This document shows, piece after piece, positions 1,408 through 63,372 of a stretch of 64,000 nucleotides of DNA; the stretch's first letter is position 1; each line of letters begins with the position of its first letter. A program made the position numbers and the translations under genes. The notes under the pieces were generated by a model. That model did no database searches and had not been told where the DNA came from. It saw nothing but the letters and a program-made list of their open reading frames with translations. The stretch comes from Bathymodiolus brooksi (Eukaryota; Mollusca; Bivalvia; Mytilida; Modiolidae): NCBI GenBank assembly GCA_963680875.1, contig OY804590.1, positions 17,730,886-17,794,885 on the forward strand. Reading direction: 5' to 3'.

Positions 1408-1690
1408 ACTACCGGTGAACTGATAGTCTGCTGATGATCATATATCGGTCCTTACTTGAAACACTGTTGTCAATGTAGAGTGTATGATCCGTCCAGTAGT
1501 GTATGTTTCGGCACTGATGTGATGTATGGGATGTATTTATCATTGATAGTTACAGTTCCTTATTATTAATGTCATATTAGTTTTCATATCCTTCCGATAT
1601 AGGTAACATTAGCCAATTTGGCTATTCTGTTTATGCTATTCACAAGTCTTGCTTCCAAAGACTTAAACACCAAACTTAGAATTATTCAGT
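1408..1690 (+). repeat. Dispersed family C, body only
   Basis: Matches the body of the repeat seen more completely at 22268-22585. Shared order: a 'ggtgaact..tagt' block, a 'cggcactga' block, a 'tagttacagttcctta' block, then 'ccttccgatataggtaacatta'-like sequence (22 bp in pieces: CCTTCCGATA, TAGGTAACATTA). The hammerhead-like tail of the family is not recognisable here. Old and diverged. Confidence 0.5.
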
Positions 1691-4836: not shown

Positions 4837-5760
4837 ATCCCAATATTTCAAATATGCTCGAATTACTCGGCCTTGCATTACGTTTTTCATACACTCTGTG
4901 GACTTTTGTATGTTGGTGAAACTCGTCAAACATTGCGAAGTAGGATGAGCCAACATCGATATTATGCAAAAGATCCCAAATACAGGATTTTGTATAATCA
5001 TTTCAATCAACCGGGTCATGACCGCTGTTTGACGATGAAAGTTCGAATCATCGAGAAGATTTACCATCATACAAACAGTCCTATACTTAATACACCTTAC
5101 CGTACCGATAGAGAGTTGCTTTGGATAAAAGAATTAGGCACTGCAATGCCTTACGGTTGCAATGATAACATCAAAGGAGTGGGAAATTTGTCAAGTCCTG
5201 GATGCAACGAAATCAACGTGATGAGCCTTTTTAATACTATTCCAAGAACGGAACGTAGCCATGGCCATAAAAGAATTCTACATCCTAATGTTAAAATGTC
5301 CTCTAAACCAAGAACGTTACAAGATACTTTTAATGATTTACTTTCTAATATACAGAAACCTTTTGGAATTCATCATATTCGTACAATCTTATTTTCACTA
5401 CTTGTAAACTACCTCAAAGATCTTAGGGATTTTGGACTTGACAAAGGAGGCGTAGATCCTTTTTCTCCTAAGTACAGATTGTCTAGTATTATATGTGACG
5501 TGGCGTCCCTTCGTCTTTTTAAACCAGTTCGATAAGAACCTCTTCATGATAACAACAGAAAATTCCTCCATATTCCGTTTGCTAACAAAGGAATCGATGC
5601 TATTAACATCAGCAACATTTTTAATAGAAAAGAGGTCGTAAACGAAATTCCCCCATATTTCAAAAATCAATCTGTTCCCATTATCTCCTATAGCTACACT
5701 AACAGCATTGGCCGTAAAAATTTCAACTACAAAGAAGTATTGCAAGATATTAACATATAA
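4837..5760 (+). pseudogene. Naiad N-terminal GIY-YIG endonuclease, broken
   Basis: In Penelope-like elements the GIY-YIG nuclease nicks target DNA for insertion. The core is visible as LCGLLYVGETRQTLRSRMSQ (4900-4960): Cys, the degenerate 'GLLYVG' form of GIY-YIG, the Arg of the TLRSR helix, and the following His. NHFNQPGHD near 5020 supplies further His residues, in keeping with the CCHH pattern of these nucleases, and ELLWIKELGTAMPYGCND (near 5113) is the C-terminal part. An open stretch continues to a TAA at 5533-5535, then the same frame goes on to a second TAA at 5758-5760, just before the CxC linker. No start codon is credible because the 5' end is missing: the frame is open only from 4837, after the TAA at 4834-4836. 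Confidence 0.85.
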
Positions 5761-5975
5761 GAGTACCTTAAGAACCCTCTGACTTGTGACTGCTCCCACT
5801 CTCCTTTTCAATACAACCCATCTGGACATGTAATCACTGTTGATCTGAATATCATTCAACATGAGAGTCTCCGTAAGGTGATTTCTCATGTTCCTAAATT
5901 CAGAGAACCTCAACACATCAATTGGAAACATAATTTCAAGATAATTATGGATGCTGTTGAAGATTATTGCCAGAA
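5761..5975 (+). pseudogene. Naiad CxC linker domain
   Basis: Continues in the nuclease frame after the 5758 stop. It contains LTCDCSHSPFQYNPSGHVIT, with the CxC cysteines at 5785-5787 and 5791-5793, then VISHVPKFREPQHINW and VEDYCQKV. The CxC motif between nuclease and RT is the hallmark used for the permuted Penelope-like clade. The frame is lost near 5975, where the sequence must shift by one to enter the RT frame. Confidence 0.8.
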
Positions 5976-7468
5976 GGTGGACAAAGAGAGAAGTAGACCA
6001 AGATCCTGAGTTAGAGTCCTTGTCAGACTGGGTTAGAACAATTAGGTCTCTAGTACAAGGTCGGATTCACAAACTCAAAAATTGTGTTAATAGTCGACCT
6101 ATGCCTGTATTTAAAGACCAAGAAGCTGTTAAGTGTCTTTCCTCTCTTCATGACAAATATGTTATCGTTCCTGCGGACAAGGCTTCCAACAATATCGTGT
6201 TTGTATGTAAATCATATTACTTCGAATGCCTAATCGAGGAATTAGGCATAAATAGCAACACCTCTAGTAATACCACATACAAACCTACTTCGTTCGACAA
6301 AGATGAAATCCTAGCTAACGACAGATCATTCATGATCTCTTTAAACATTCCCTCTGGTAAAGAGTCTGAGGATTTACCCTATTTATATTGGATACCTAAA
6401 CTCCATAAGACACCATGCAAAGAAAGGTACATAGCGGGATCATCAACTTGTTCGACGAAAGAATTGTCTATTCACCTGACAAAGATTCTGTCTGCAGTAA
6501 AAGAGGGACAACAGAAATATTGTGAAACTGTTTACTCGCGTAGTGGCATAAATCACATGTGGATTTTGAAAAACTCTAAAGATCTTTTGGATAACCTGAA
6601 ATCAAGATCTTTCTCTCAGGTATCCTCCATCAAAACTTTTGATTTTTCAACTCTATATACCACCATACCGCATGACAAATTAAAAAACCCGCTTAAAAGA
6701 AACAATTCATAAAGCTTTCAGTCATAGAAATTATGGCTCAAAATGTGTTGTGTTAGGCTACAATTCCACATATTTTTCAAACAAAATTCAAAAAGGTAAA
6801 ACATGCTACTCCGAGGAACAAGTGATCAGTATGCTGGAGTTCCTCATCGATAACATATTTGTCTCCTTTGGAGGGACACTGTTTCAGCCGGTCGTCGGCA
6901 TACCAATGGGTACGAATTGTGCCCCTCTTCTAGCCGTTTTATTTTTATACTCATATGAGTCGGAGTTTCTTCAAAAGCTTGTAAAAGATAAGAAGATTCA
7001 TGAGGCTAGAGCCTTTAATTTCACATACAGGTATATTGATGACGTTTTATCTATCAAAAATTCTAGATTTGCAGAATTTCTTCCATTGATATATCCTCCA
7101 CAGCTGGAAGTTAAAGAGACCACCGATACAGCTTCGTCCGCATCATTTTTGGACTTATACCTCGAATTTGACGACAGTAGTCAACTCAGTATTTTCCAAA
7201 CATGTGCAGCAATATACCAGCTTCTCCTGCATATGGTATTTACATCTCGCAATTGATTCGCTATGCAAGGGCCAATAGCAATTATTCTGATTTCCTGAAA
7301 CGTCATCTTCATCTGAGAAACAGGCTACTGGACCAGGGCTATAAAAAGATTCGCCTTATTCGATCTCTTAAAAAGTTTATATTCCGATACCAATATCTTG
7401 TCGAAATATATTCCGTCTCTGCAGAAAAAATTATAAGCGATGCATTTTCATATAGTGAAAATGTATAA
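5976..7468 (+). pseudogene. Naiad reverse transcriptase, frameshifted
   Basis: Penelope-type RT copies element RNA into DNA at the nick made by the nuclease. Seen in order: ELESLSDWVRTIRSLVQGRI; PYLYWIPKLHKTPCKERYI (fingers); motif A FDFSTLYTTIP with its aspartate (about 6638); then a one-base insertion in an A-run at 6682-6688 that ends the frame at 6712; PMGTNCAPLLAVLFLYSYE (motif B, with ADLF changed to AVLF relative to copy 2); RYIDDVLSI (motif C, about 7030-7053, catalytic DD intact); FLDLYLEFDD. A 46-bp deletion after ..DDSSQLS shifts the frame again. The C-terminal part from MCSNIPASPAYG to FSYSENV is in the frame starting at 7202. Both palm aspartate motifs survive although the gene is broken. 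Confidence 0.85.
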
Positions 7469-8802: not shown

Positions 8803-9286
8803 CGGTGTCGTATAGTAAACCTTCGCATAGGAAACCTTCCCCCGGAATGTTTACTATATAGTAATCCTTCTCCCAGATACTTTACTATATAGTAAATATT
8901 CCCCCGGGGGAAAATGTACTATATAGCAAACATTCCCCCATCCATAGCCGATCATCCCCCCTGATAGTTTGCTATATAGTAAATGTTCCCCCTTAATCCG
9001 GATAATTACTATTGATACGGAATTTAGCACCTTAATCGTGTTAATTTTAATTGCTATATACCATTAATTATATCCGGTTATGATTAAAAGGTTAAAAAAA
9101 TGTACGGAGGCATCTTGCAGTATTTGAGTAGGTAGGAAGGTTTACTATGCGGTAAAAATACTTGACTGATTTTGTCTGTTTATATAATTATGAGTTTTGA
9201 CTTTCCCTTTATAAGATTGTTCGGAGTTCGGTAATTTTGTTATTACCTTTATCTACTATGGGGGAAGGTTTACTCTATGACACCGG
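8803..9286. mobile_element. Non-autonomous TIR element, copy A
   Basis: Begins CCGGTGTCGTATAGTAAACC and ends with the inverted counterpart GGTTTACTCTATGACACCGG, giving terminal inverted repeats of about 20 bp with two mismatches. The interior is a series of CTATATAG palindromes separated by runs of C or G (ATTCCCCC). No transposase frame, so it would depend on another element. A clear target-site duplication is not visible. A Naiad 3' fragment sits inside at 9158-9251. Confidence 0.75.
9158..9251 (+). mobile_element. Solo 3' end of a Naiad element
   Basis: Matches the last 94 bp or so of the Naiad 3' untranslated region (TTGACTGATTTTGTCTGTTT to GTTATTACC). In copy B the corresponding place holds a different sequence of roughly 28 bp, so the fragment arrived, or replaced that stretch, after the 2.4-kb duplication. 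It is an extreme 5' truncation. Confidence 0.9.
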
Positions 9287-14340: not shown

Positions 14341-14460
14341 AATTTTAATAAAGATGCAGATATCTAATTTAGTGCGGACGACGCGTTTCTGGAATAAACT
14401 GGGGTTATTTTCATTCTGCGGACGACGCGTTTCTGGAATAAACTGGGGTTATTTTCATTC
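14341..14460 (-). repeat. Dispersed family C tail with a 44-bp duplication
   Basis: Reading on the minus strand, TTCCAGAAACGCGTCGTCCG and ACTAAATTAGATATCTGCAT match the conserved end of family C. The segment GCGGACGACGCGTTTCTGG.. is present twice in tandem (from about 14373 and 14417). The CTGATGA box of the hammerhead-like core is lost here (AACCCCAG instead). Confidence 0.75.
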
Positions 14461-15114
14461 TATTTCGAATAGGTGCTTTTACTGTGTATATATAGACATT
14501 ATTAGTGCAGCGTCTTATAATATGAAATTTATGTGTATGAGGCTTAAAAACTGGGATAAAGGCGAAGATCACCGAGCCTTTCCTTTTTTGTTGTGCAGAA
14601 TACGCATAAACATTAATATTTTAAGATACTGAACTGATATTGTGTTTATCCTGCAGACAAATCACAATAATCCATAGAAGTTTATATTTGTAACAAAACA
14701 ATATCCACTCAATGCAATATGCCTTCTCAAATAGAACAACTTATGACATAATAATGTTCTCTTTAATAGAGGAAAAAAACAACACCTCGTAAACTTTCAA
14801 AGCACCAAGAATATCAGCCAGTTACATAAGAATGTATATATGTGTTATTAAAATGCAATAAATTGATATCGTCAATCACAAATGTAGCTTTTCTTTAATT
14901 TTGTTGTTGACATTTTATAATTATTCTAGTAATTTATTGGATAATGATTCAAATCAGAAAATTGCTTTTGCTTAATGTATGGTTTAGTCTGATCGTAAAT
15001 TGTATAATTGATTTGGTAGCAAAATGTCATTAACAATTTTTTGTAAGCATGGCTCAACAAGTATTTCGTGGTTTTTTTTGGGTTTTTTTCCCTTTGGTTT
15101 ATGGTGTTTAAAGC
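14461..15114. other. Non-coding, no feature seen
   Basis: AT-rich. A T-rich run lies near 15070-15090. Short frames without recognisable domains. Confidence 0.5.
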
Positions 15115-15355: not shown

Positions 15356-16539
15356 ATGCTAAACCTTTCAATGTTGAAGAATTTTTTCAGAGCTTTTCTT
15401 TTATCGTTTATTTTTATATGTATTGCCGTTGGAGATACAGTTATAAAGAGGAGAGGGCTTTAACCGGTTTAAACCCGCCACTATTTTGTGCCTATCCCAA
15501 TCAACTACCTGGATCTCCAACGTCATATGATGTGGTCCCCTTTGTGTATTCAGACAATCAGTGTTTAAGCTTTGTTTTCAAAATATCGAATATTTTCCCT
15601 TTCGATACACTGGTTGCAATGTTCGGAATATTAGATAGGGTAAGAGATACAAAACCTATACTCTTTCGTCACCGATGGCTGATATAGACTAGGCTAGTAC
15701 TAACATTGACGAATAACAAAAACAACTCCTCGGAATATAGTAAATCATACCTTTCAAAGATTTGAGTAAATCCTATAATCAAATGTAATCTATGTAATGT
15801 ATACAAAAGTAATGTATACTATTTCTGGTTTATTTTGCTATGTATAATATATAAAGTGTTAGTAAACATTTTATCAATGTTTTTTATGTCAAATATTTTC
15901 CTTAATATCCTTATTAGTGTCTTTCTATTTTATAAAATAATGAATTTTGACATTTTTGATAGGATTTCAAAAAAGAGATTTTCTTAACTTATCACGTTTT
16001 AGCTAGTGATCGTTTTGACAGTACATTGATAACTGAATGTAGGAGTATAGCTATATACAGACATATACTGGTTAAATGATAATAAATATTTATACAAAGA
16101 GAAATGTTCTAATTAATCCAAGATAGCATTTATTGAAATGAAGAAAAACGTGGGTGATGAAAAGGTTAATGTTTTGTCGTAATAAAACGTAGCTATCAAT
16201 TTTTTTTTGTAAGTTTCGGAAAGGATGTTAGAAGAAACAAATTAACTATTTTATTAAATGGGAATTTATTGTCTGATATTGTAACTAATAAAACAAACTG
16301 CCCTATCAGAATTACTTAGAATTGAGTCTTATTCATCTTTAATTGTGTATCCGTAGCCGCGATACATTAGATGATCTTATGACGTCTATGCAATCAGTGT
16401 ATATCATCATTGTCTCTTAATAACTGTTTTTGTATTCTTCAAAAATCAAAATTATTTTTATTCTGACCAAAGCGTAGTATAAATGGCTTTTTATTCAACC
16501 CACCTACATAGTATAACGTATATTATTTAAAAAAAATTG
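15356..16539. other. Non-coding, no feature seen
   Basis: A frame of about 110 codons (15356-15687) is open but continues out of the SINE and has no recognisable domain, so it is not called. Otherwise AT-rich and featureless. Confidence 0.5.
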
Positions 16540-16645
16540 ATATATTATTTTACTTTCCAATATCTGTAAATTGAGTGTACCTGAAGAAGGTTATGCCAGA
16601 AACGAACCGTACCCACTCAGTTTGATATATACGTTTGTATTAGTG
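16540..16645 (+). repeat. Dispersed family C tail with hammerhead-like core
   Basis: GTGTAC (16575-16580), CTGAAGA (16581-16587), GGTTATGCC, GAAAC (16599-16603), then CGTACCCAC. Box one fits the CUGANGA rule. The cleavage triplet is lost (ACC in place of GUC). The downstream strand GTAC still pairs with the upstream GTAC. Confidence 0.7.
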
Positions 16646-17149
16646 CAATCTTACGACTCGAAATTTAAATCAACAAGAGAATGAATACACATTATTAATC
16701 AAAACATAACCAACACGAAACTTTAAAAGGTTAGGGAGTAAGAGCCACGCTCAGCATTTCCTGTCCCGTAGATACCACCTGTCGTGTAATGATGGAATTT
16801 TTCAAAATCGAGTTTACGATGACACGTTATATTCCCTTATATTTACAATTATTAACTAAGCGCTCAAAATCACCGGATAAAGAATACGGTGTTGCCTATT
16901 ATAGCACATGTAACATTTTCATTCTAATTTAAACTCATCTGGTTGGAAAGTATGGCGTTTTCATCTCTGTGGGTGTGTTGTACTCCCAAGTGATGGTAAT
17001 AACCCAGAGACTTAAATTAAGATCAGGTGGGCTAATAGAAGTAAAACAAAAAGACATAATGTTCTTCAATGTTGTTATATATTAATACTTGACTCTAACA
17101 TACGTTGTATTAATAATATTTGTTTGTCTATTAGAAGTATGAATAATGG
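16646..17149. other. Non-coding, no feature seen
   Basis: No recognisable signal. Naiad copy 2 begins at its right edge. Confidence 0.5.
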
Positions 17150-18539
17150 GTCTGAGTTAGAGTCCTTGTCAGGCTGGGTTAGAACAATTAGGTCTCTAGT
17201 ACAAGGTCGGATTCACAAACTCACAAATTGTGTTAATAGTCGACCTATGTCTGTATTTAAATACCAAGAAGCTGTTAAGTGTCTTTTCTCTCTTCATGAC
17301 AAATATGTTATCGTTTCTGCGGAAAAGGCTTACAACAATATCGTGTTTGTATGTAAATCATATTACTTCGAATGCCTAATCAAGGAATTAGGCATAAATA
17401 GCAACACCTCTAGTAATACCACATACAAACCAACTTCGTTCGACAAAGATGAAATCATAGCTAACGACAGATCATTCATGACCTCTTTAAACATTCCCTC
17501 TGGTAAAGAGTCTGAGGATTTACCCTATTTATATTGGATACCTAAACTCCATAGGACACCATGCAAAGAAAGGTACATAGCGGGATCATCAACTTGTTCG
17601 ACGAAAGAATTGTCTATTCACCTGACAAAGATTCTGTCTGCAGTAAAAGAGGGACAACAGAAATATTGTGAAACTGTTTACTCGCGTAGTGGCATAAATC
17701 ACATGTGGATTTTGAAAAACTCTAAAGATCTTTTGGATAACCTGAAATCAAGATCTTTCTCTCAGGTATCCTCCATCAAAACTCTATTTACCACCCTACC
17801 GCATGACAAACTAAAAACCCGCTTAAAAGAAACAATTCATAAAGCTTTCAGTCATAGAAATTATGGCTCAAAATGTGTTGTGTTAGGCTACAATTCCACA
17901 TATTTTTCAAACAAAATTCAAAAAGGTAAAACATGCTACTCCGAGGAACAAGTGATCAGTATGCTGGAGTTCCTCGTCGATAACATATGTGTCTCCTTTG
18001 GAAGGACACTGTTTCAGCAGGTCGTCGGCATACCAATGGGTACGAATTGTGCCCCTCTTCTAGCCGATTTATTTGTATACTCATATGAGTCGGAGTTTCT
18101 TCAAAAGCTTGTAAAAGATAAGAAGATTCATGAGGCTAGAGCCTTTAATTTCACATACAGGAATATTGATGACGTTTTATCTATCAATAATTCTAGATTT
18201 GCAGAATTTCTTCCATTCATATATCCTCCAGAGCTGAGAGTTAAAGAGACCAACGATACAGCTTCGTCCGCATCATTTTTGGACTTATACCTCGAATTTG
18301 ACGACTGTGGTCAACTCAGTACTAAAATTTATGATAAAATCGATGACTTCAATTTTAAAATCATAAACATGTGCAGCAATATACCAGTTTCTCCTGCATA
18401 TGGTGTTTACATCTCGCAATTGATTCGCTATGCAAGGGCCAGTAGCAATTATTCTGATTTCCTAAAACGTCATCTTCATCTGAGAAACAGGCTACTGGAA
18501 CAGGGCTATGAAAAAAATTCGCCTTATTCGATCTCTTAA
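17124..18539 (+). pseudogene. Naiad RT, long open frame but catalytically dead
   Basis: A 471-codon frame, the longest Naiad frame in the window. The first few codons (before about 17153) are flanking sequence and there is no credible own start. It contains PYLYWIPKLHRTPCKERYI, PMGTNCAPLLADLFVYSYE (motif B intact, unlike copy 1), and FLDLYLEFDD. Two defects matter. First, a 15-bp in-frame deletion near 17783 removes the FDFST of motif A (SIKTLFTTLP where copy 1 has SIKTFDFSTLYTTIP), and with it a catalytic aspartate. Second, motif C reads NIDD instead of YIDD. One extra A near 18515 shifts the frame and replaces the normal C-terminus (..SLKKFIFRYQDLVEIYS) with NSPYSIS. Openness here does not mean activity. 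Confidence 0.88.
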
Positions 18540-19005
18540 AAAGTTTATATTCCGATACCAAGATCTTGTCGAAATATATTCCGTCTCTGCAGAAACGATT
18601 ATAAGCGATGCATTTTCATATAGTAAAAATGTATGAAGATAAAGAAATCAAGAAAGATGTCAAAGATATTTTTTTATCAATGTGTGACTTACAAATGTTT
18701 TTTACATTTACTTCACTGAATATGGTACTGCTTTGACAACTATTTTACCTATTTTGTTCCTGTATTTAAATACTGCTATAGTGACAGCTGGAACCTTTCA
18801 ACCGTAATGAGAGCGGGAGGTTTGGCGCTTTAAAATCTGATTCAACACACCATTTCTTTAGAAATGCCTGTACCAAGTCAGGGTCATTACAATTTTCACA
18901 ATTTTCCGGTTGTTGACTGATTTTGTCTGTTTATATAATTATGAGTTTTGACTTTCCCTTTGTAAGATTGTTCGGAGTTCAGTAATTTTGTTATTATCCT
19001 TATTT
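17150..19005 (+). mobile_element. Naiad copy 2, 5'-truncated
   Basis: Homology with copy 1 starts at GAGTTAGAGTCC (about 17153), just after the linker, so nuclease and CxC linker are absent. It then runs through the RT and the complete 3' untranslated region to ..TTATTATCCTTATT near 19003. Cutting at the 5' side with a fixed 3' end is usual for target-primed insertion. Confidence 0.88.
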
Positions 19006-21605: not shown

Positions 21606-22059
21606 AATTAGATAGGTTTTGTTAGACCTGTTACTAAATCTCTAACAAATAAATGTTATATTTTCAGGCATTGCATGTTTATTGTATATATATATCGCCA
21701 TACTTTGTGCAGAAGGCGGACAGAAAGTAAACATGTTTTGGTATATCTAATGACATGCAACTGAGTGTAAGCATTAATTCCTCTAAAGGTTGTTGGAAGA
21801 TTTATTACAACACGGAGTACACACAATACTCAATTTAATTGCAGCGAAATGGTTGTCTATCCAACAGAGAGAATAATTTGTATACATGCTCGATGAAGGT
21901 TATTGATACGATTTTTTCATTGATTTTGCCATAATTGATGGTGTTTTCGGAAATACGATATTTCATTCAAAAACAACCTGCAAAGTACGATTTACCAAAT
22001 GTAAAGAGAACAAATGTTAGATTGCTCGTTCTTATTGTTTTATTGTTGAACTGTACAGT

Positions 22060-22262
22060 CCCTGATTTATGTAATTATTATTAACACTAGGGTTATCCCC
22101 CCTCAGGCATAGGTGACCTTAGCTTATTAGCGATCTAGCTTAAGCCCTTTGGTTTGCTTCCTCTTTAAAATATTTTACTTTACAATCTATTGCCTTTGAG
22201 CTTTTGATGAAGGTTATTCCAGGAACGCATTACATTAGATATCTACATTTTTATTAATGTCA
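22060..22262 (+). repeat. Dispersed family C copy
   Basis: Contains CCCTCAGGCATAGGTGACCT, then CCCTTTGGTTTGCTT, and the tail TTTGATGAAGGTTATTCCAG (about 22203) followed by GAACGCATTACATTAGATAT. The hammerhead-like boxes are damaged (TTGATGA, GGAAC). Confidence 0.75.
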
Positions 22263-22267
22263 AAGGC

Positions 22268-22585
22268 TCGATACATCTGCATCTGCTGGTGAACTTTTAG
22301 TTCAGAAGGTATCATCCACCCAGTAGCCAATGCTTTGGCACTGAGAATATTTATTAGACATAATTGTAATTAAAATGTAATAGTTCCTAAGTAATGTTAT
22401 CACTATTAAAGCTGTGATTCTCATCCTTCAGATATAAGCGATCTTATCGTATTTTGGCTATCTTATTTAGGCCCTTTGGTTTACTTGCTCCCAAATATTT
22501 TAAGTTATGTGGCTTTCATTCCTGTCGACGGTGAGTGTACCTGATGAAGGTTATTCCAGAAACGCGTCGTCCACCCGAGACATTA
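22268..22585 (+). repeat. Dispersed family C, best copy, hammerhead-like tail
   Basis: The most complete copy: 'gctggtgaacttttagtt', a 'ggcactgaga' block, a body with GCCCTTTGGTTTACTTGCTC, and the tail. The tail at 22533-22575 reads GAGTGTAC, CTGATGA (22541-22547), AGGTTATTCCA, GAAA (22559-22562), C, GC, GTC (22566-22568), GTCCACCC. These are the two invariant boxes and a cleavage triplet of a minimal type I hammerhead ribozyme. The 3' strand of stem I is mutated in this copy. Confidence 0.75.
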
Positions 22586-22760
22586 GAAGAAACCATATAA
22601 CGTGGCCTCGCAATCAGACAAGATTTACATTGGAAAAGCTGTGTATGCTTGCTCTGCCTGAGTAAAGATCATCCTTGAGTTGTCATGATGGATAAAATAG
22701 CAAACGTTAAAGGAGCTATGGGTATAAAGGACAGACGTATGTCACCCTTGCAAGAATGAA

Positions 22761-23038: not shown

Positions 23039-26000
23039 TCATATGTTATTCCGAAAAAGTTCTAATTTGTTTTTATCATTTTCATTAATATGCGAAGTTT
23101 GTAATGTGCATTGTAAATGTTTTTTAAAATTATTTTTCCAAGTGTTGAAAATTGTTTGATCTCCAATTCGGGATTGGTTATATTTCACCTTATTACGTAT
23201 TTTCCATATTTCCCACTTTGAGATAAATATTACGGTATTACAAATGACGTCTAAATCCTCACCCCCATATAGCCCTAACATTATATTTAATTCCTTGATT
23301 TCTATATTAGCTGTTAATCCAGATCTGTTAAATATTGCTTCTATTTCTTTTATAATTTTGTTCACAGAAGGACATTTAAAAAATAGATGCTGCATCGTTT
23401 CATCGTTGTCTCTTATTTGGCAGAGATGGCATCTTCCGTTTGACAAATTCATTTTTTTCAATCTATGTTCTGTATTATTTATATTATGGAGACATTTCCA
23501 CTGGAATTCTTTGACCTTATTAGTAACTTTGATTTTCTTTAATTTTGTCCAAATTTGTGTCCAATCAATATTACCCCCGTACTGTTCTTCCCACTTAATC
23601 TGACATTTTGGTTTTATATTTTGTTTAAAGATTACCTGAATTACTTTTATTTTCAATTTATCAGGTGATATAATTGTATTTGACTCATTTAAAAATTGTA
23701 GCTTATCGTTGATATTTAAGGTAACTACGTTCTGGTACTATTGTAGTTTCACCTTTTAAGACTTTTATGAACTTTTCGGGGATTGCTTTTTTTATCTTAG
23801 AAAACTCTGAAATACAGTTCCTCCTATCTATTAATAAATTGTATATATCATGACAACTTTTAAAATTTGTATTATTTGAATCCCAAATATCGTTTATAGT
23901 TCGTAAGTTACTTTGCAGAAACGAGGTAAACCCTAATGGTTTGTTTTTAAAAGTTATTGAAGAGTTACAAAATATTCTGGTTTTTAGAATGGAATCAATG
24001 TCATTATTACACAATTGAATAAGTTCCTGTAATTTTGACCATGATTGGATACATATTTTGTAAAAAAAAATGGTAACATATTTAAATTTAGAGTTGATAC
24101 ATTAGAGCACTTACATACAAAATATTTTTCATTAAACTTGATGTCTAACTTACGGAGCCAATACTTACCAATTGCATTCCAACTTTCTAATGGTTCATGT
24201 AAAATTCGGTATAGAAGCTTAATTCTTTTGCTGTCAATAAACTCTTGTATGTTAATCATACCCATGCCTCCATTTTCTACTCCCAAGCAGCAAACTTTCC
24301 TATCTATTTGATTAATACCCCCTCCCCAGATAAAACCCCATACCAAAGTTGTTATTTCTTTTACGTATTTTTCTGGTATTCCCCGCATTTCAATTTCGTA
24401 ACCACAAAGAGAGATCAAGAGATTTTTCACTATTAAAGTTTTTCCTGTATATGTCAAGTTTCTACTTTTCCAAACGTGGACACAATTTTTCATTTTATCT
24501 ATTATTGATTTCCATATCTCATCATTTTGTATATTATAACCATGATGAATGCCAAGAGTTTTAACATTATCCTTTGTCCAAACTATTTTTGTAAACTTGG
24601 GTCTGTTATTTTTAGCCGATCCAATATACATACCTTTTGTCTTTTCATAATTGACTTTTGAACCAGAGGCTTTTTCATATATAGTTAAAATATCAAAAGA
24701 TTTTTTGACAGATTCATCATTTTTATTAAATAGCTGAGTGTCATCTGCAAACATGCAGAGCTTAGTCTCGATATATTCCCCATCTTTCCCCCCAGGTAAT
24801 TTGATTCCTTGTATTTCACTATCTCCCCTTATAGCACAGGCTACAGGTTCGGCCTGTAGTATGTAAACAAGAGGCGCTATTGGACACCCTTGTCTACAGG
24901 ACCTTGAAATATTGAAATATTTAGACACAAAACCATTGGTCTTGATACAAGTTTGTGCATATTTGAATAACATTTGAACCCACTCCCTAAATTTTTCACC
25001 AAAGTTAAATTTGCTTAATACATGATCCACCCATCCCCATTCTACCCGGTCGAAGGCCTTTTGTTGATCTAAAAATATTATGATACCGTCATCATCTTCA
25101 CGATCAGTATATTCTATTACATCTTGTATTAGACGGTTAGCTTCACTGATATTACGACCTTTTACAAATCCCTTCTGGTCCGAATGTATTAATTTTGGTA
25201 AAACAACTTTTAATCTTTCTGCAAGAATTTTTGCAATTATTTTGTAGTCACTGTTTAATAGAGTCAGTGGTCTCCAGTTTCGTATATCTTCCCACTCCCC
25301 ACTTTTATGTAATAGAGTAAGAACCCCCTTATATTGTGAAGGAGTTAGTTCTTTTTTTTCGAAAGTATCATTTACAAGCAGAAAGAATTCGTCTTTGATT
25401 TGTTCCCAATGAGTTATATAAAACTCAGAAATTATTCCATCCTCTCCGGGGGATTTATTTGGTTTCAAAATTTTTAAAACATTTTTAATTTCGTCTATGC
25501 TAACATCCAATTCGAGAGTTTCTTTTTCATCCACATTTAACTTACTTTCAATATGTTGCGTTAATTTATTAGCACTGTTTTCATCCCATCCCTCAGTTGT
25601 AAATAGCTTGGAGTAAAATTTTATCTGTTCGTCAATTATTGAATCTATATCATATTTATACTTACCTTCTGTGTTTTTAATTCGATTCCACATTTTATTT
25701 TCTCCCTGTTTTTTTTCAAGTTCAAAGAAATATCGAGTTGACCTTTCCCCTTCTTCCGCCCATTTTATTCTTGAACGAATTTTTGCGGCTTCCGCTTTTT
25801 GTGTATAATATTTCTTAATTAAATTTTCTAATTCTAGTATCTTACCTTTGATGATATCGCCGTCATCTGTACTAGATTTAAGATCTTCTAACTGTTTCTC
25901 AAATTTTTCTATGTCTTTTTTATTTTGACCTTTTTTAATTGCTTACTTATTTGCATTGTCAAATATTTAATTTTAGTCTTTGTAACATCCCACCATTCTT

Positions 26001-26856
26001 GAATATTTCGGAATCTTTCTATCTCGTTCTTCCATTTACCCCACCAAGTATTAAATGCTTTTGTAAATAGTTCACTAGTTATAGTGTTAAAATTCATTGC
26101 CCAAATTCCCGGGCCCCTCTCAATGTCATCTAATTTTAATTTAGTGGATACTAAGTCGTGATCGCTGAATGGAAAGTGTTTTATATTGGTATCAAACACT
26201 TTACTACATAAACCATTTGAACATAAAATAAAATCAATACGTGATTTTGCATTCCCTCTTTAAAAAGAATATCGTTTTTTATTTGGGTGAAGCTTTCTCC
26301 ATGCATCATATAAATCATACCTAATAATAAGATTTTGTAGTTCTATTTTGCCTATGTCGTCCGTCCGTCTATTGGGATATCTATCAATCTTTTTATCGAG
26401 AATACAATTAAAATCTCCCAAAACAATATTGTAATGATAGATACTATCATCTTCAGGGTTGTAAGAAATGTTTTGAAAAGAATCGAAAAATTGTTTTCTA
26501 TCACTGCATAGATTTGGAGCATATATATTAAAAATATGAAACACTGCATTTTCTGTGTTTATCTCACATGTTAATAGTCTACCAGTCTTGTCAGAAAAAT
26601 TAAAATTAATATCAAAAGCAAAATGTTTACTTAAAAGGATAGCCACGCCCTTTGATTCGCTAGATCCACATAACCATGCACTAGCACCGCCCCCTTGTGT
26701 TTTCCATTCACTTTCCCACCGGTTAATATCAACTCCCGTACAGTGCGTCTCCTGTAAACAAATACAATCATATTTCTTTGATACGAGCCAATTAAACACC
26801 AACTCACGTTTTCTATTATCTCGTAGTCCATTAATTGTGACAAGTTTCAATGACAT
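23039..26856 (-). pseudogene. LINE ORF2: AP endonuclease, RT, zinc ribbon (broken)
   Basis: N-terminal EEP endonuclease from MSLKLVTINGLRDNR: CLQETHCTG (catalytic Glu), YNIVLGDFNCILDKKIDR (GDFN), then an in-frame TAA at 26262-26260, and after it SRIDFILCSN and FPFSDHDLV (the catalytic SDH). A one-base shift in an A-run near 25930 leads into the RT: LKPNKSPGEDGIISEFY, NWRPLTLLNSDYKIIAK, LDQQKAFDRVEW (motif A), SRSCRQGCPIAPLVYILQAE (motif B), CMFADDTQLF (motif C, FADD). A shift in a T-run near 24062-24070 and another near 23740 precede the tail, which has a zinc ribbon CHLCQIRDNDETMQHLFFKC (C-x2-C..H-x4-C). ORF2 acts in the nucleus, nicking target DNA and priming cDNA synthesis. All catalytic motifs remain although the gene cannot be translated through. 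Confidence 0.9.
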
Positions 26857-27175
26857 TATCTAAACTATTGTCTGGGTATTTACTCACTTGTGACGGATTT
26901 ATTTTAACTTGACAATAAACACATTTAAACCTTTTCATCAGCTGTGAAAAAAATTCACATTGACCTTTAAGATAATACATTTTCATTTTAAAATTGAGAC
27001 AATATTTCCAAAAACAATTATAAATATCGTCACTGGATTCATTTATATGTACACATTTCAAATAATAATTCAATAAGAAATACAAATCTTGCAAATACAC
27101 ATACATATAACATATATTACAGTTTAAAGAAAAACACGCCTGTTTAAAGGCTACAAATTGTAAAGAAGTGGACAT
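26831..27175 (-). other. Small open frame between LINE ORF1 and ORF2
   Basis: A frame of 114 codons from an ATG at 27175, overlapping the start of ORF2 by about 25 bp in another frame. It is Cys- and Tyr-rich with one C-x2-C (FKCVYCQV). I recognise no family. It may be only spacer. Confidence 0.2.
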
Positions 27176-35202: not shown

Positions 35203-35465
35203 GGTCATACTTAAATACGCCTGCAGTAGTAACCAGATAAATATATACGCCTGTGTGAAAAGGTATACGCCTGCAACTATATGGTTCACTTTTATTTTTA
35301 TTTTTTTATATCAAATAATAAACATCCGATATATTCCTTTTACTAGTTTATATTAAAAAAAAAATAAATAAAAAAGAACCATATAGTTGCAGGCGTCCAC
35401 CTTTGTATGACACACAGGCGTATATATTTACCTGGTTACTACTGCAGGCGTATTTAAGTATGACC
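35203..35465. repeat. Foldback palindrome 3, arms about 85 bp
   Basis: The left arm TCATACTTAAATACGCCTGC..GCCTGCAACTATATGGTTC and the right arm GAACCATATAGTTGCAGGCG..GCAGGCGTATTTAAGTATGA flank an AT-rich centre of about 90 bp. Each arm has three ACGCCTG/CAGGCGT blocks. A few mismatches. Confidence 0.92.
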
Positions 35466-49935: not shown

Positions 49936-52204
49936 AAAATGAAAAAAAAAATAAGAAAATAATTTAAAAAAATTAAGTCATTAATTGGACAGAGCAAGGT
50001 GCATTAAATATCTATAACCTTAAAATGACATCAATGTTAAAGGTCATGAAACCGGAAGTTGCATTTTGATGCAAAGCAGTGCCTAGCAACCATATAATTT
50101 TAGAATCAGGATAAGGACTATCAAGTGGGAGTGACATTTTTAAGAAACAAGATTTTTTAAATGTCCCTGGTAGCCAAGAGAATGTGGTATTGGCAAACAA
50201 ATATGTACCTTTCTATTTAATAATTTTACAAGAATACCTTTAATTTGATAATATTTCATATCATATAGGAAATAAGTATTACAATCTTTTCAAGCAGGTG
50301 ACAGCCATGCAATATATCTACCAACAGGATCCCGAGCTACATTAAATATTTTTTATGTAAACGTCTGGACATTGAACCCATCACATTTGCTTTGTATATC
50401 ATTAATGCTTCGTCATTCCATACCCCATACAATATATCAAAATTGATGCGTTATGTTGCTATCATATTGAATATTCAAAACAATTATATTGTATATGCCA
50501 CATGTACACACGCTTCAACACGTGTCTTATGTCTATCACTAGATTCGCCTTATAGAACAATGTAGCACTATCGACTATTGAAGCTATATTTTATAGTGGA
50601 TATATATTGGGCTCGAATCCCGTTGAGGGTAAAACAAACAATTAGCCCAGCTTAAAAATCTAACTCGTAAAAGGTTTAATTTCCAAATGTTATATTTAAT
50701 CTTCATCCATACCTCCAGTAGAGGAGATATGTTGTATGATTGTCACTGACTTAGACGATTGGATAATATACTTTATTTTCTGTGAATGGATGGTGAATTC
50801 GTCTTCATCCTATGCAAACAAAAAATCTCCTCAATAAAAACGTATATATCAAATCTAGTGTGCACGGCGATTTAACACTAACACTTCTGCGGAAACAATT
50901 ATTGCTATTTCACCTGAACACATCCTGTCTCAGTGAAAAATGTTAGTGCAATGGTAAAGTTGGGTTACCGTTAACCAATTTAATCTCGCCACATTGTTGT
51001 GCCTGTCTCGGGGCCTGGGTTTCTATCACTAAATGATGATAATTTGTTGTGTTCAATGATTTGGGGTTGTTTGTTTTGTTTGGTATTTGTAGAGCTGTTT
51101 ACCATCTATTTTATTTTCGTAATCAAAATGACGTACTTAATAACATATAGCTTCGCAACTTACAAAACACGCTACATATTGTCACCATATATGTACATAC
51201 ACGCGCACACACAGACAACATATTTTGAAATATGCAAACACACTGCATCAGTATTAAGTTATGTTATGCCACACACACACAATAATAAAAACATTATGAT
51301 AACTTAGATAAAGCTTCAAATAATAAATGTCCGAATTATATTTCCGGTGATAGATAGCCCAATATATATAATGAACGAGTTCAAGACGCATACATCTTGT
51401 TAGTTATATTTGCACAACTTCTTGAGTGTAATGATAAGCTTCTAATGCCATGAAGGACCAGTGTAGTTTAGTGCATATACAGATACAAATTGTATTTAAA
51501 GTCGGAGTATAAAAACATACAACATAAGCTCTGAAGAGCTTTAAAAACCGACATATTATTGCTGTTTTTTTTACCATAAAACAAGCATAATACCACAGTG
51601 GTTGGTAACAGTCCCGATATCCTACTTCAAGTGTTCAGGCTGGAGTTGTAGTGAACAATTTGATCTAACAATATTACTAACCTATAGGTCATATTCATTT
51701 TGCATATCAGTTGATAAGATAAGTTTAAACAAATTAATCAAATCATTACGTCATTAGAAATAATAACATGCTGATTCATTCCTATTTATTTCATAATTAG
51801 TGTTAATTCAATAGCTTAATTAGCCTACAGTAACATGAAGAAATCTATTTGTAAGATTTCTAAGTGTAGTCTGAGTGTGGTCACATGTACGAACATATTT
51901 TATACAGATACAATTAATTAGTCTAGAAGTACGAACATTAAATTGGTTTCTCATAAAATATCTGAATTATGTATTTGTAATCCTTAATCACCCCCCCTCG
52001 GGAAGGCAATTTACTTAGATTCTTTTGCATTTAACAATGATCGTATCGTCATTAAAATCTGTCTGTTTTAATCCGGTAATAAAACTCGTCCTTCATACCA
52101 TCTTGTGCAATGTATGCATGTCCACAAGTTGATGAGGCCTGTAGGTAGACAATTGATCAGCATCACGTTGACCACTAAATCTGGTATAAATAAATGTTTT
52201 TTAT
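49936..52204. other. Non-coding, no clear feature
   Basis: An A-rich run is at 49930-49960, a tRNA box-B-like string GGGCTCGAATCCCGTTG near 50609, and short (CA) runs near 51200-51290. No coding signal. Confidence 0.5.
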
Positions 52205-52535
52205 TACTATCAGTGGGCGGACTAGTAGCCCCGATTGCATCATCCGACGCAGTAGTCAGTATTTCGTCACTGACATTGTTTATTATATATATTTATTACT
52301 GAAATTTACTGAAATTTACAGTTTCTAAATAATGTAATTATTAATAAAACTAAGGTTCTCCTCCATCAGACATAGGTGACCTTAGCTGATTTTGACTATC
52401 CTGGTATTATTGCTCCCAAAACTTTAAATTATTTAGCTTTCCAATCTTTTCTTATTTAGCGTACCCGATGACGGTTATTTCATAATGGAGGCGTGTGCAC
52501 GAAATTAGATATTTACGTTTTTATTAGTGCATTTT
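52205..52535 (+). repeat. Dispersed family C copy
   Basis: GCATCATCCGACGCAGTAG, TAATTATTAATAAAACTAAG, GACATAGGTGACCTTAGCTG, AATTATTTAGCTTTCCAATC, tail GCGTACCCGATGACGGTTAT and ATTAGATATTTACGTTTTTA. The hammerhead-like boxes are damaged (CCGATGA; GAAAC missing). Confidence 0.8.
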
Positions 52536-53614: not shown

Positions 53615-54735
53615 TGTGTCCTAGTAAAAAAATACGTAGATAATGAATTTGGTGTGCGCGACGCGTTTCTGGAATAACCTTCATTGGGTATGATTATAAT
53701 AACCTTCATTGGGTATGATTATAATAACCTTCATTGGGTACGATTATAATAACCTTCATTGGGTATGATTATGATAACCTTCAATGGGTATGATTATAAT
53801 AACCTTCATTGGATATGATTATAATAACCTTCATTGGGTATGATTATAATAACCTTCATTGGGTACGATTATAATAACCTTCATTGGGTATGATTATAAT
53901 AACCTTCATTGGGTATGATTATAATAACCTTCATTGGGTATGATTATAATAACCTTCATTGGGTATGATTATGATAACCTTCATTGGGTATGATTATAAT
54001 AACCTTCATTGGGTATGATTATAATAACCTTCATTGGGTATGATTATAATAACCTTCATTGGATATGATTATAATAACCTTCATTGGGTACGATTATAAT
54101 AACCTTCATTGGGTATGATTATAATAACCTTCAATGGGTATGATTATAATAACCTTCATTGGATATGATTATGATAACCTTCAATGGGTATGATTATAAT
54201 AACCTTCATTGGGTATGATTATAATAACCTTCATTGGGTATGATTATAATAACCTTCATTGGGTATGATTATGATAACCTTCATTGGGTATGATTATAAT
54301 AACCTTCATTGGGTATGATTATAATAACCTTCATTGGGTATGATTATAATAACCTTCAATGGGTATGATTATGATAACCTTCATTGGGTATGATTATAAT
54401 AACCTTCATTGGTATGATTATAATCAAATGATTGGAAAACCAAATAAAAAAGCAGATTTTGGGATCAGGTAGACCAAAGGACCTAAATAGGATAGACAAA
54501 TTGGGTAAGGTCACCTATTCCTGAGAGAGGAGAACCTTGGTTTTATTAATAATTACATTATTTAGGCACTTCAAATTTTAATAATAGATATATTTAATAA
54601 ATATGCTGTCGAAACACTGACAAAAGGTCGGATGATACCCTTAGGAACTAATAGTCTACCAGCAGTGATGTCAAGGCAGTGATAAATTGATACTGATATT
54701 CTGGAGCAAATCGGTTCTGCGTATTCGTTATTTCG
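53615..54735 (-). repeat. Dispersed family C copy split by a minisatellite
   Basis: The tail TTCCAGAAACGCGTCGCGCA (minus strand, about 53674-53655) and the body AGGAATAGGTGACCTTACCC, GTCCTTTGGTCTACCTGATC (54425-54735) belong to one copy. Between them lies the 25-bp array at 53676-54424. Confidence 0.85.
53676..54424 (+). repeat. 25-bp minisatellite, 30 copies
   Basis: The unit is AACCTTCATTGGGTATGATT plus ATAAT, with very few variants (GGGTACG, GGATATG, CAATGGG, TTATGAT). The total of 749 bp is 30 units with one base missing in the last. The unit includes the AACCTTCATTGGGT of the family C tail, so the array looks like a local expansion of that spot. Confidence 0.97.
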
Positions 54736-59084: not shown

Positions 59085-60050
59085 ACATAGATTGTAAACA
59101 TTGAATCATAAGCTGCTCCAGTACACGCTATTATAGCACGAGCAATGCAATTGATTGCCTTGCTGTGTAAGGGTTTTCTGACAGCAGCAATGCATGCGGG
59201 AGAGTTTTACCAAGTATGCATGTACTTCAGTGTGAAGATACTTCCCTGTTAATACAGAGAACATATGACCTCTCTCAAAGGACGATATAATAGATGTGTG
59301 CATGACCATGAGTTACAGAAGATCCGGAGACAGATGATTGTACTCCACTACTCCATGATTTGTTTATACACGCTTATATCAAGGGACTTTCATCAAGTGA
59401 TTCTTTAGAATAAATTGTAAACTTTGAAGCAAAAGCTACTAAAATACACGCTATTATAGCACGAGCAATGCAATTGATTGCCTTGCTGTGTAAGGGGTTT
59501 TCTGACAGCAGCAATGCATGCGGGAGAGTTTTACCAAGTATGCATGTACTTCAGTGTGTAGATACTTCCCTATTAATACAGAGAACAAATGACTTCTCTC
59601 AGAGGACGATATAATAGATTTGTACATGACATTGAGTTACAGAAGATCCGGAGACAGATGATTGTACTCCACTACTCCATGATTTGTTTATACACGCTTA
59701 TATCAAGGGACGTCCATCAAGGGATTCCTTAGAATAAATTGTAAACTTTGAAGCATAAGCTGCTCCAGTACACGCTATTATAGCACGATCAATTTCTGTG
59801 TAAGGGATTTTCTGACAGCAGCAATGCATGCGGGAGAGTTTTACCAAGTATGTATGTACTTCACTGTGAAGATACTTCCCTGTTAATACAGAGAACAGAT
59901 GACTTCTCTCAGAGGACGATATACTAGATTTGTATATGACATCGGGTTACAGAAGATCCGGAAGCAACAAATTGTACAAAGCTACTCAATGATTTCTTTC
60001 TACGCGCTTATATCAACGGATTTCAATCAAGGGATTCTTAAGAATAGAGA
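59085..60050. repeat. 323-bp satellite, 3 tandem copies
   Basis: AGCT of GCTGCTCCAGTACACGC starts at 59111, 59434 and 59758, so periods are 323 and 324 bp. Conserved blocks are ACACGCTATTATAGCACGA, TTTTCTGACAGCAGCAATGC, ATGCGGGAGAGTTTTACC and ACAGAAGATCCGGA. Copy 3 is the most diverged and has lost a few bases after ATAGCACGATC. Confidence 0.95.
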
Positions 60051-60992: not shown

Positions 60993-61534
60993 TTTCTGTG
61001 TGGTGAATGTCATCGCACAATATACATAGATACATTTTTGTACTTGCAAAATATGAAAGAACAATAGCTGATGGTTGATCTTTGGTGGCCCGTGGCAACA
61101 TTTTGCTCTAAAGAAACCCACACCTTTTTTTTTCCTTGTGGCTTTCGGGTCGGTTCCAGTGTCATATCTTACCAAAAAGACGTTAAGCTAAAATCGATCA
61201 ATCAATGAACTAATAGGCCTTTTCTACGCGATGCCATTTGGGTTCGGTTGACAAAAGACAAATATTTCGATTCTAATCTCCATGTAGTCGCAAAATTTAT
61301 CAATTAATTTATGAAAACCTTAGTCAGGTGGTGATGTAAGGGAATCCAGACTATATGGAGACAAAAAACATGTTTCAATTGATCTCGTGTGGAAAATCAA
61401 CTTTAATAACTTGCCACAATTTATGCATAGGACTTATATAATAATAATAACATTCTTTCAAATCTTTATATATATTATTTTTAATGTTAATGAATGGATA
61501 TAATTTTGAATACATGAATCTATTAATAAATTAT
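60993..61534. other. Non-coding, no feature seen
   Basis: AT-rich. Nothing recognised. Confidence 0.5.
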
Positions 61535-61645
61535 CTGACTTTCCAATCTTCCGATTTTGAGTGTACCTTATGATGGTTATTCCAGAAACGTGTCATGCGC
61601 ACTAAATTTGATATCTACGCTTTTATTGGGTTTTTTTACCAAGCA
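61535..61645 (+). repeat. Dispersed family C tail with hammerhead-like core
   Basis: GAGTGTAC, then CTTATGA (61567-61573, one change from CTGATGA), GGTTATTCC, GAAAC (61585-61589), GTC (61592-61594), ATGCGCAC. Downstream TGCGC still pairs with upstream GTGTA by Watson-Crick and G-U pairs. Confidence 0.7.
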
Positions 61646-62549: not shown

Positions 62550-63372
62550 AGTCTGCTTCTCATCGATAACATATTTGTCTCCTTTGGAGGGACACTGTTT
62601 CAGCAGGTCGTCGGCATACCAATGGGTACGAATTGTGCCCCTCTTCTAGCCGATTAATTTTCATACTCATATGAGTCGGAGTTTCTTCAAAAGCTCGTAA
62701 AAGATAAGAAGATTCATGAGGCTAGAACCTTTATTTTCACATACAGGTATATTGATGACGTTTTATCTATCAATAATTCTAGATTTGCAGAATTTCTCCC
62801 ATTGATATATCCTCCATCCGCATCATTTTTGGACTTATACCTCGAAATTGACGACAGTGGTCAACTCAGTACTAAAATTTATGATAAACGCGATGACTTC
62901 AATTTTAAAATGATAAATTTTCCAAATATGTGCAGCAATATACCAGCTTCTCCTGTATATGGTGCTTACATCTCGCAATTGATTCGTTATGCAAGGGCCA
63001 GTAGCAATTATTCTGATTTCCTGAAACGTCATCTTCATCTGAGAAACAGGCTACTGGACCAGGACTATAAAAAGATTCGCCTTATTCGATCTCTTAAAAA
63101 GTTTATATTCCGATACCAAGATCTTGTCGAAATATATTCCATCTCTGCAGAAACGATAATAAACGATGCATTTCCATATAGTGAAAATGTATAAAGATAA
63201 GGAAGTCAACAAAAATGTCAAAAATATTTTTTTTTATCAATGTATGACGTAAAATTGTTTTTGACATTTCCTTCACTGAATTTGGTACTACTTTGACAAC
63301 TATTTTACCTATTTTTTTCCAGTATTGTTATAAATACTGTTATATTGACAGCCGCAACCTTTGAGACGTAAT
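62550..63372 (+). mobile_element. Naiad copy 3, strongly 5'-truncated
   Basis: Begins inside RT motif B region (CTTCTCATCGATAACATATT, equal to about 6842 in copy 1) and runs through the RT C-terminus into the first 170 bp or so of the 3' untranslated region. Homology stops after CAGCCGCAACCTTTGAGACG near 63372, so unlike the others it lacks the common 3' terminus. Confidence 0.88.
62556..63194 (+). pseudogene. Naiad RT C-terminal half, broken
   Basis: DNIFVSFGGTLFQQVVGIPM and GTNCAPLLAD, then TAA (Leu codon changed, about 62656), FSYSYESEFLQKL, YIDDVLSI with the catalytic DD intact, a 36-bp in-frame deletion after IYPP, SASFLDLYLEIDD, and an intact C-terminus (RSLKKFIFRYQDLVEIYSIS..PYSENV) to the stop at 63194. 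It keeps FPNMCSNIP, which is shortened in copy 2, and so helps place the 46-bp deletion of copy 1. Confidence 0.85.

Follow-up and report, generated by a model that had tools for sequence, protein, structure and literature searches.

The closest described systems are the non-LTR retrozymes of the mussel Mytilus galloprovincialis. PMC7229834 reports a total of ~5000 hammerheads of type I, which fall into two families and mostly lie within repeats of ~350-390 bp, together with abundant circRNA, and suggests Penelope-like elements as helpers of these retrozymes. In vitro, a Penelope-like element moves RNA even when no hammerhead cleavage takes place, and its reverse transcription starts at an internal site (PMC11167929).

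We analyzed a stretch of 64,000 nucleotides of the Bathymodiolus brooksi genome (hereafter, the window), which carries copies of a repeat family resembling the Mytilus retrozymes. Compared by description with those of PMC7229834, the family is likewise a hammerhead-type repeat with a similar unit length (~340 versus ~350-390 bp), tandem copies, high copy number, and a mussel host; it differs from them, as described there, in its stem II (AGG...CCA with A·A at the core) and in giving no Rfam match. With the minimal hammerheads of Penelope-like elements and Terminons, as set out in PMC7761336, it shares a near-absent helix III and a probable need for a dimer. Some of those hammerheads lie in the pseudo-LTRs of coding elements and others are dispersed, whereas our family forms a defined ~340-bp unit for which we found no link to an RT ORF in the window. 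The initial annotation had drawn its parallel with these minimal hammerheads; unit size, tandems, the lack of an RT ORF, and the relatives described below favor the animal retrozymes as the closest match. The Dolichopoda pDo500 satellite is similar in that a hammerhead lies within an animal repeat and shows compensatory stem changes, but pDo500 is satellite DNA in which G10.1 and C11.1 are called conserved, with compensatory changes (PMC2837043), whereas our family is dispersed and lacks this pair. Going by titles and the opening lines of abstracts, we did not find the family in the literature on ribozymes, hammerheads, and retrozymes of Bathymodiolus, mussels, Mytilus, and Crassostrea.

A hammerhead-like motif in a dispersed repeat family

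The motif at window positions 22533-22576 reads GAGTGTAC-CTGATGA-AGGTTATTCCA-GAAA-CGC-GTC-GTCCACCC, just as the initial annotation had read it. Its core, CTGATGAAGGTTATTCCAGAAACGCGTC (22541-22568), is flanked by arms that are complementary in part. The copies and parts of the repeat in the window are as follows.

22533..22540, plus strand: putative stem I, 5' arm GAGTGTAC; forms 5 of the 6 pairs with 22569-22574
22541..22568, plus strand: hammerhead-like core CUGAUGA / AGGUUAUUCCA / GAAA / CGC / GUC; read from the sequence, fits the genome-wide 28-nt core
22569..22576, plus strand: putative stem I, 3' arm GTCCACCC, consensus GTGCGCAC; from the sequence and the family consensus
22039..22568, plus strand: ~1.5 tandem units of the ~340-bp repeat (partial 22039-22228, full 22229-22568); match to the doubled composite unit, 75.5%, spacing 337
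22204..22231, plus strand: decayed core of the upstream tandem unit (TTGATGAAGGTTATTCCAGGAACGCATT); read from the sequence
16541..16642, plus strand: 5'-truncated copy with core at 16581-16608, CTGAAGA, and triplet ACC; match to the composite unit
61527..61627, plus strand: 5'-truncated copy, 92% to the composite unit; core at 61567-61594
52216..52526, plus strand: decayed copy, almost full-length; core at 52465
53622..54684, minus strand: copy in which a minisatellite of 25 bp x 30 (53673-54424) has grown out of the hammerhead segment
14346..14461, minus strand: copy whose 3' hammerhead half is duplicated (44 bp x 2; 14373-14461)
1478..1636, plus strand: unit-body fragment without the hammerhead region; match to the composite unit
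50833..50869, minus strand: 3'-tail fragment; match to the composite unit

The bare pattern CTGANGA-N4..30-GAAA was found 6 times in the window, no excess over the 4.14 expected (20 of 100 shuffles had at least as many), so the evidence lies in the repeat family and not in the motif alone. The 22-nt core occurred 5 times in the window at ≤3 mismatches, compared with 0 in 100 dinucleotide shuffles. Genome-wide, a 28-nt core pattern with one free position (N at position 7) gave 1334 matches in the 2.0-Gb assembly and its reversed-pattern control gave 0, bearing out the claim of a dispersed family. Both controls rule out a chance motif. An 81-nt query returned 939 candidates, and the 40 that were scored all matched.

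In 17 sampled 10-kb stretches placed at round coordinates, profile hits revealed 10 copies of the hammerhead region, counting each array as one and excluding one hit without the core. Extrapolation gave ~118,000 copies genome-wide (Poisson range, 56,000-217,000), a rough estimate because the counts are clustered, with 11 of the 17 stretches empty. The family therefore has very roughly 10^5 recognizable copies. Within the 170,000 sampled bases, the repeat occupies 3187.

The initial annotation had let its reading depend on CUGANGA, GAAA, and an NUH triplet being present in the consensus. The family consensus keeps CUGAUGA, GAAA, and GUC in this hammerhead order, and so do the genome-wide core matches. 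The view that the initial annotation took of the copy at 16575 did not hold: the supposed compensating change is one-sided (U-G to U-A) and accompanied by a mismatch at the fifth pair, and the triplet reads ACC, which is no NUH and leaves no cleavable site as read.

Two genome-contig records, each from a symbiont bin, were hit in an exact scan: L001, a contig of a Bathymodiolus brooksi symbiont that matches at 88.9% over 81 nt, and L002, which comes from Ca. Thioglobus. Judged by their repeat content, both appear to carry host mussel DNA within bacterial symbiont bins. BLAST of 22380-22620 against plasmids and phages gave no match. On viral contigs, an exact motif scan and two further pattern scans yielded nothing informative; the hammerhead pattern used there, when run on the window, found none.

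Unit structure and copy ends

Core-to-core spacing of tandem copies was 337 in the window, 339 in L017, 341 in L018, 339 in L040 (from hit coordinates), and 305 in L028. The resulting unit of ~340 bp is without an RT ORF, in agreement with metazoan non-LTR retrozymes, which are non-coding and ~170-400 bp long. Tandem copies, a further mark of these retrozymes, are present as well, yet most of the 30 loci that we fetched are single copies of sub-unit length. A 342-bp spacing in L011 was rejected as a tandem: the central part of this stretch shows no similarity to the unit body, and the copies are two separate insertions. The unit body presumably resembles a Mytilus repeat.

The 3' ends of the copies are nearly fixed. 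In 28 of the 30 fetched loci, they lie at unit positions 366-377 (mean 372.3, S.D. 2.4). The loci were the best matches to a query ending at unit position 364, so that shorter 3' ends were selected against and longer ones were not. The observed ends are 27-38 nt beyond the triplet, or ~33 nt downstream of the putative cut, indicating that the copied RNA was uncut there or re-ligated. The remaining two loci, L017 and L018, are tandems whose match reaches the end of the doubled query; L028 and L029, which are among the 28, are each slightly over one unit long, and at all four loci a further copy continues into the next unit body. The family had been said to end in the motif, a position that we refine to near the 3' end of the unit, with copies running ~33 nt past the putative cleavage site.

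The 5' ends of the fetched loci, in contrast, are scattered over unit positions 6-280 (S.D. 71); these are BLAST ends, and the flanks of L023 and L032 still resemble unit sequence. Three loci with common flanks (L014, L015, and L031) are one insertion that was duplicated, and L027 is the window copy at 61539. We saw no pattern of target-site duplications at the fetched loci, where the longest shared string averaged 5.5 (control, 5.2); L005 has a single 12-nt shared string, in a flank that is locally repeated.

Internal minisatellites are frequent in the repeat copies, most of them seeded in the hammerhead segment. Arrays of this segment have periods of 25 bp (window 53673-54424 and L039:7134-7425), 27 bp (L002:1-369), and 43 bp (L040:6880-7296), and a different part of the unit is expanded in L045:8800-9432 (45 bp). 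The 25-bp units lack GAAA; the 25-bp arrays are therefore not hammerhead chains.

Pairing of stem I

The initial annotation had described an unbroken stem I of six pairs. Such a stem is present in the family consensus (GTGTAC/GTGCGC), whereas the copy at 22541 forms 5 of the 6, with a mismatch at the third position. Because the MAFFT alignment of divergent hammerheads was wrong around stem II, we read the stem I arms by hand and compared six sub-family sequences in a swap test that excluded L001 (out of register, deletion), L055 (a near copy of L051), and L056. Arms paired with their own partners at 27 of 36 positions, compared with a mean of 21.8 over swaps, and 8 of 720 swaps reached 27; with the inner four pairs alone, 18 of 720 reached the observed value, and as L052 and L053 are near copies, the six sequences are not independent. 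The own partner was uniquely best for the family only: L033 tied with the arm of L052, L051 tied with two others, and L054 paired better with a foreign arm than with its own. Pair 1.1/2.1 is C-G in the family, U-A in L033, and G-C in L051, and the two innermost pairs are C-G and A-U in the family versus U-A and C-G in L033, which constitute double changes.

Covariation across copies, whose absence the initial annotation would have taken as refuting its reading, was not found inside the family. We used 54 of 92 aligned hits, the other 38 having >6 gaps in the core region; these 54 comprise 31 young copies (≥76 of 81 identities) and 23 diverged ones. Young copies were paired in 176 of 186 stem I cells. 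Diverged copies were paired in 93 of 126 cells, compared with 96.8 ± 2.0 in shuffles, and 1979 of 2000 shuffles reached the observed value, although decayed copies of one source make a weak test. Sliding the arms by one base left 9 and 12 paired cells in the diverged set, and sliding them by two bases left 73 and 76. The predicted stem I therefore finds support in the comparison between sub-family sources but none in the decayed copies.

Stems II and III and predicted folds

Hammerheads need a pair at 10.1/11.1. The stem II of the family consensus has an A·A mismatch at this position, beside the core, followed by two G-C pairs and then UUAUU. The GG/CC stem II of the earlier reading retains its two G-C pairs but is separated from the core by this mismatch. 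In the family alignment, the loop II bases are conserved as strongly as the catalytic core.

Stem III is possible only as A-U and C-G around a 2-nt loop, and the folding program cannot close two pairs; the three stem III pairs of L033 are likewise not closed. The sequence ACGCGU is self-complementary, making a six-pair stem III possible in a dimer. In the predicted dimer, GUGCGCAC pairs with itself and there is no double hammerhead. The predicted hammerhead lies above the best structure by 5.7 kcal/mol for the main consensus, 4.0 for the C variant (whose best fold contains stem I), 3.2 for L033, and ~12 for L051 and L052. Predicted energy therefore does not separate the family from its relatives.

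Hammerhead-bearing relatives in the same genome

The family shares CUGANGA, GAAA, GUC, and stem I, as well as their order, with Rfam Hammerhead_1 (RF00163) but differs in its minimal stems II and III. The Rfam hammerhead search proposed in the initial annotation gave no match at E up to 10 for the window and six family loci (L003, L018, L017, L001, L002, and L029), placing them below the RF00163 cut-off. In the genome, the stem II pattern GUC...GAC had one match, L033, and the wider pattern CTGANGA-N5..20-GAAACGCGNGTC had 24, with a control of 0. Among seven relatives examined, L033 (35.1 bits), L051 (34.5 bits), and L056 (34.1 bits) are above the RF00163 cut-off of 34, L055 (32.5 bits) is just below it, L052 is weak (18.8 bits), and L053 and L054 gave no Rfam hammerhead match. 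Clear type I hammerhead repeats are rarer than the family in this genome, and their flanking skeleton is similar. We also observed that L051, L055, L056, and similar matches form a separate small family with the loop GTCRTTWATAAAC and Rfam-grade or nearly Rfam-grade hammerheads.

GAG precedes stem I in the examined relatives, L054 excepted. Stem I is followed by CAGTAAATT in L033, L051, L055, and L056, by CACTGAATT in L052, by CACATAATT in L053, and by CACTAAATT in the family. Flank similarity between the family and L051 is weak (49 of 2000 shuffles reach it upstream and 169 of 2000 downstream), and for L052, L053, and L033 downstream it was not significant in 2000 shuffles. Among the relatives, the downstream flanks of L051 resemble those of L033 (14 of 2000 shuffles) and L052 (36 of 2000). 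The family profile reaches L033 at E 0.074. Judging from these sequences, the family and its hammerhead-bearing relatives likely share descent. The hammerhead reading gains from the Rfam-grade relatives and from the double compensatory stem I changes between sub-families, and it loses from the lack of covariation inside the family.

Reverse transcriptase ORFs of the window

An element with RT ORFs has three copies in the window, at 4837-7256 (ORF 5945-7256), 17016-18540, and 62658-63194. Its ORFs presumably carry a YIDDVL-like motif, and one copy has upstream what we take to be a GIY-YIG-like ORF. Searches of Pfam with three ORFs and of the PDB with one gave no match, and a scan of viral contigs for loci related to the RT ORF returned nothing informative. 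Copies 1 and 2 end at TTTTGTTATTAYCCTTATT, and a lone 91-bp 3' end lies at 9162-9252.

Origin and mobility of the family

The motif likely forms the 3' part of a family of non-coding, non-autonomous retrotransposons that belongs with the animal retrozymes. The family is probably retrozyme-like and descended from type I hammerhead retrozymes, with a hammerhead that has become degenerate. Tandem units would be transcribed by read-through, and the RNA could then undergo hammerhead self-cleavage, most likely as a dimer because stem III has only two pairs around a 2-nt loop and ACGCGU is self-complementary. Circles might form by ligation, or uncut multimers might be used instead. A borrowed enzyme would start reverse transcription ~33 nt downstream of the cleavage site and proceed to a variable extent; a fixed start and a variable run would produce fixed 3' ends and ragged 5' ends. 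Common descent with the relatives, RNA cleavage, circles, and the mobilizing enzyme are the steps that we infer in this scheme.

One version of the retrozyme explanation omits the ribozyme step. Here, the hammerhead would be a fossil in a retrozyme descendant that lost cleavage when GUC...GAC in stem II became AGG...CCA and that multiplies through multimers of uncut RNA. We regard this as quite possible, if not what we would favor: the A·A at 10.1/11.1, the absence of covariation within the family, and 3' ends past the cleavage site, where the copied RNA was uncut or re-ligated, all argue for it, as does the movement of RNA in vitro by a Penelope-like element whose own hammerhead was not needed (PMC11167929), but CUGAUGA, GAAA, and GUC are kept in the consensus and in 1334 copies, and the consensus stem I is fully paired. 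The family hammerhead, degenerate in stem II, may be weak or dead. It seems rather unlikely that this ~10^5-copy family cleaves with a two-pair stem II (A·A first) and a stem III formed only between two copies (through self-pairing of ACGCGU) while a Penelope-like enzyme, starting at a fixed point ~33 nt downstream of the cut, copies it from multimers or circles. Continued cleavage by so worn a motif would widen the definition of a hammerhead; its loss would suggest that very high copy number is within reach of a retrozyme that has no ribozyme. In either case, the near-constant 3' end beyond the putative cleavage site allows a direct test in the mussel of whether cut or uncut RNA serves as the copied template.

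Two explanations dispense with a retrozyme. A conserved hairpin (ACCU GAUGA AGGU) recognized by reverse transcriptase, with an accidental resemblance to a hammerhead, forms part of the minimum-energy structure predicted for the main consensus, and CCU...AGG is also possible in L054. We nonetheless find it improbable, as the lowest-energy fold of the C variant has stem I instead, L033 and L051 (Rfam-grade hammerheads with a similar skeleton) lack the AGG arm, and T to C at 2.5, a common change (16 of 21 diverged copies), disrupts the lower hairpin while improving stem I where 1.5 is G. The motif might also be an untranslated end of the window's Penelope-like element (RT ORFs 5945-7256, 17016-18540, and 62658-63194), given that two of the three RT ORFs have a repeat copy upstream of them, at distances of ~0.4 and 1.0 kb. 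However, the two regions match before the RT part only in the repeat itself (16536-16641 versus 61522-61627), and the homology between copies 1 and 2 of the RT element starts at 17152 and stops at TTTTGTTATTAYCCTTATT, with the motif absent. We rejected this very improbable identity on the grounds that the RT-element homology excludes the motif and that no boundary is shared in the window. The initial placement of the motif on a separate non-coding family stands, the unit being without an RT ORF and having no boundary in common with the RT ORFs of the window.

Other features of the window

A LINE-like element lies on the minus strand at 23039-26859, with endonuclease-like and reverse-transcriptase-like ORFs recognized by eye. 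A long inverted repeat at 35249-35419, which gave a plant MIR530 hit on both strands below the cut-off, is probably a small hairpin transposon. At 59087-60046, there is a tandem repeat of 324 bp in 3 copies.
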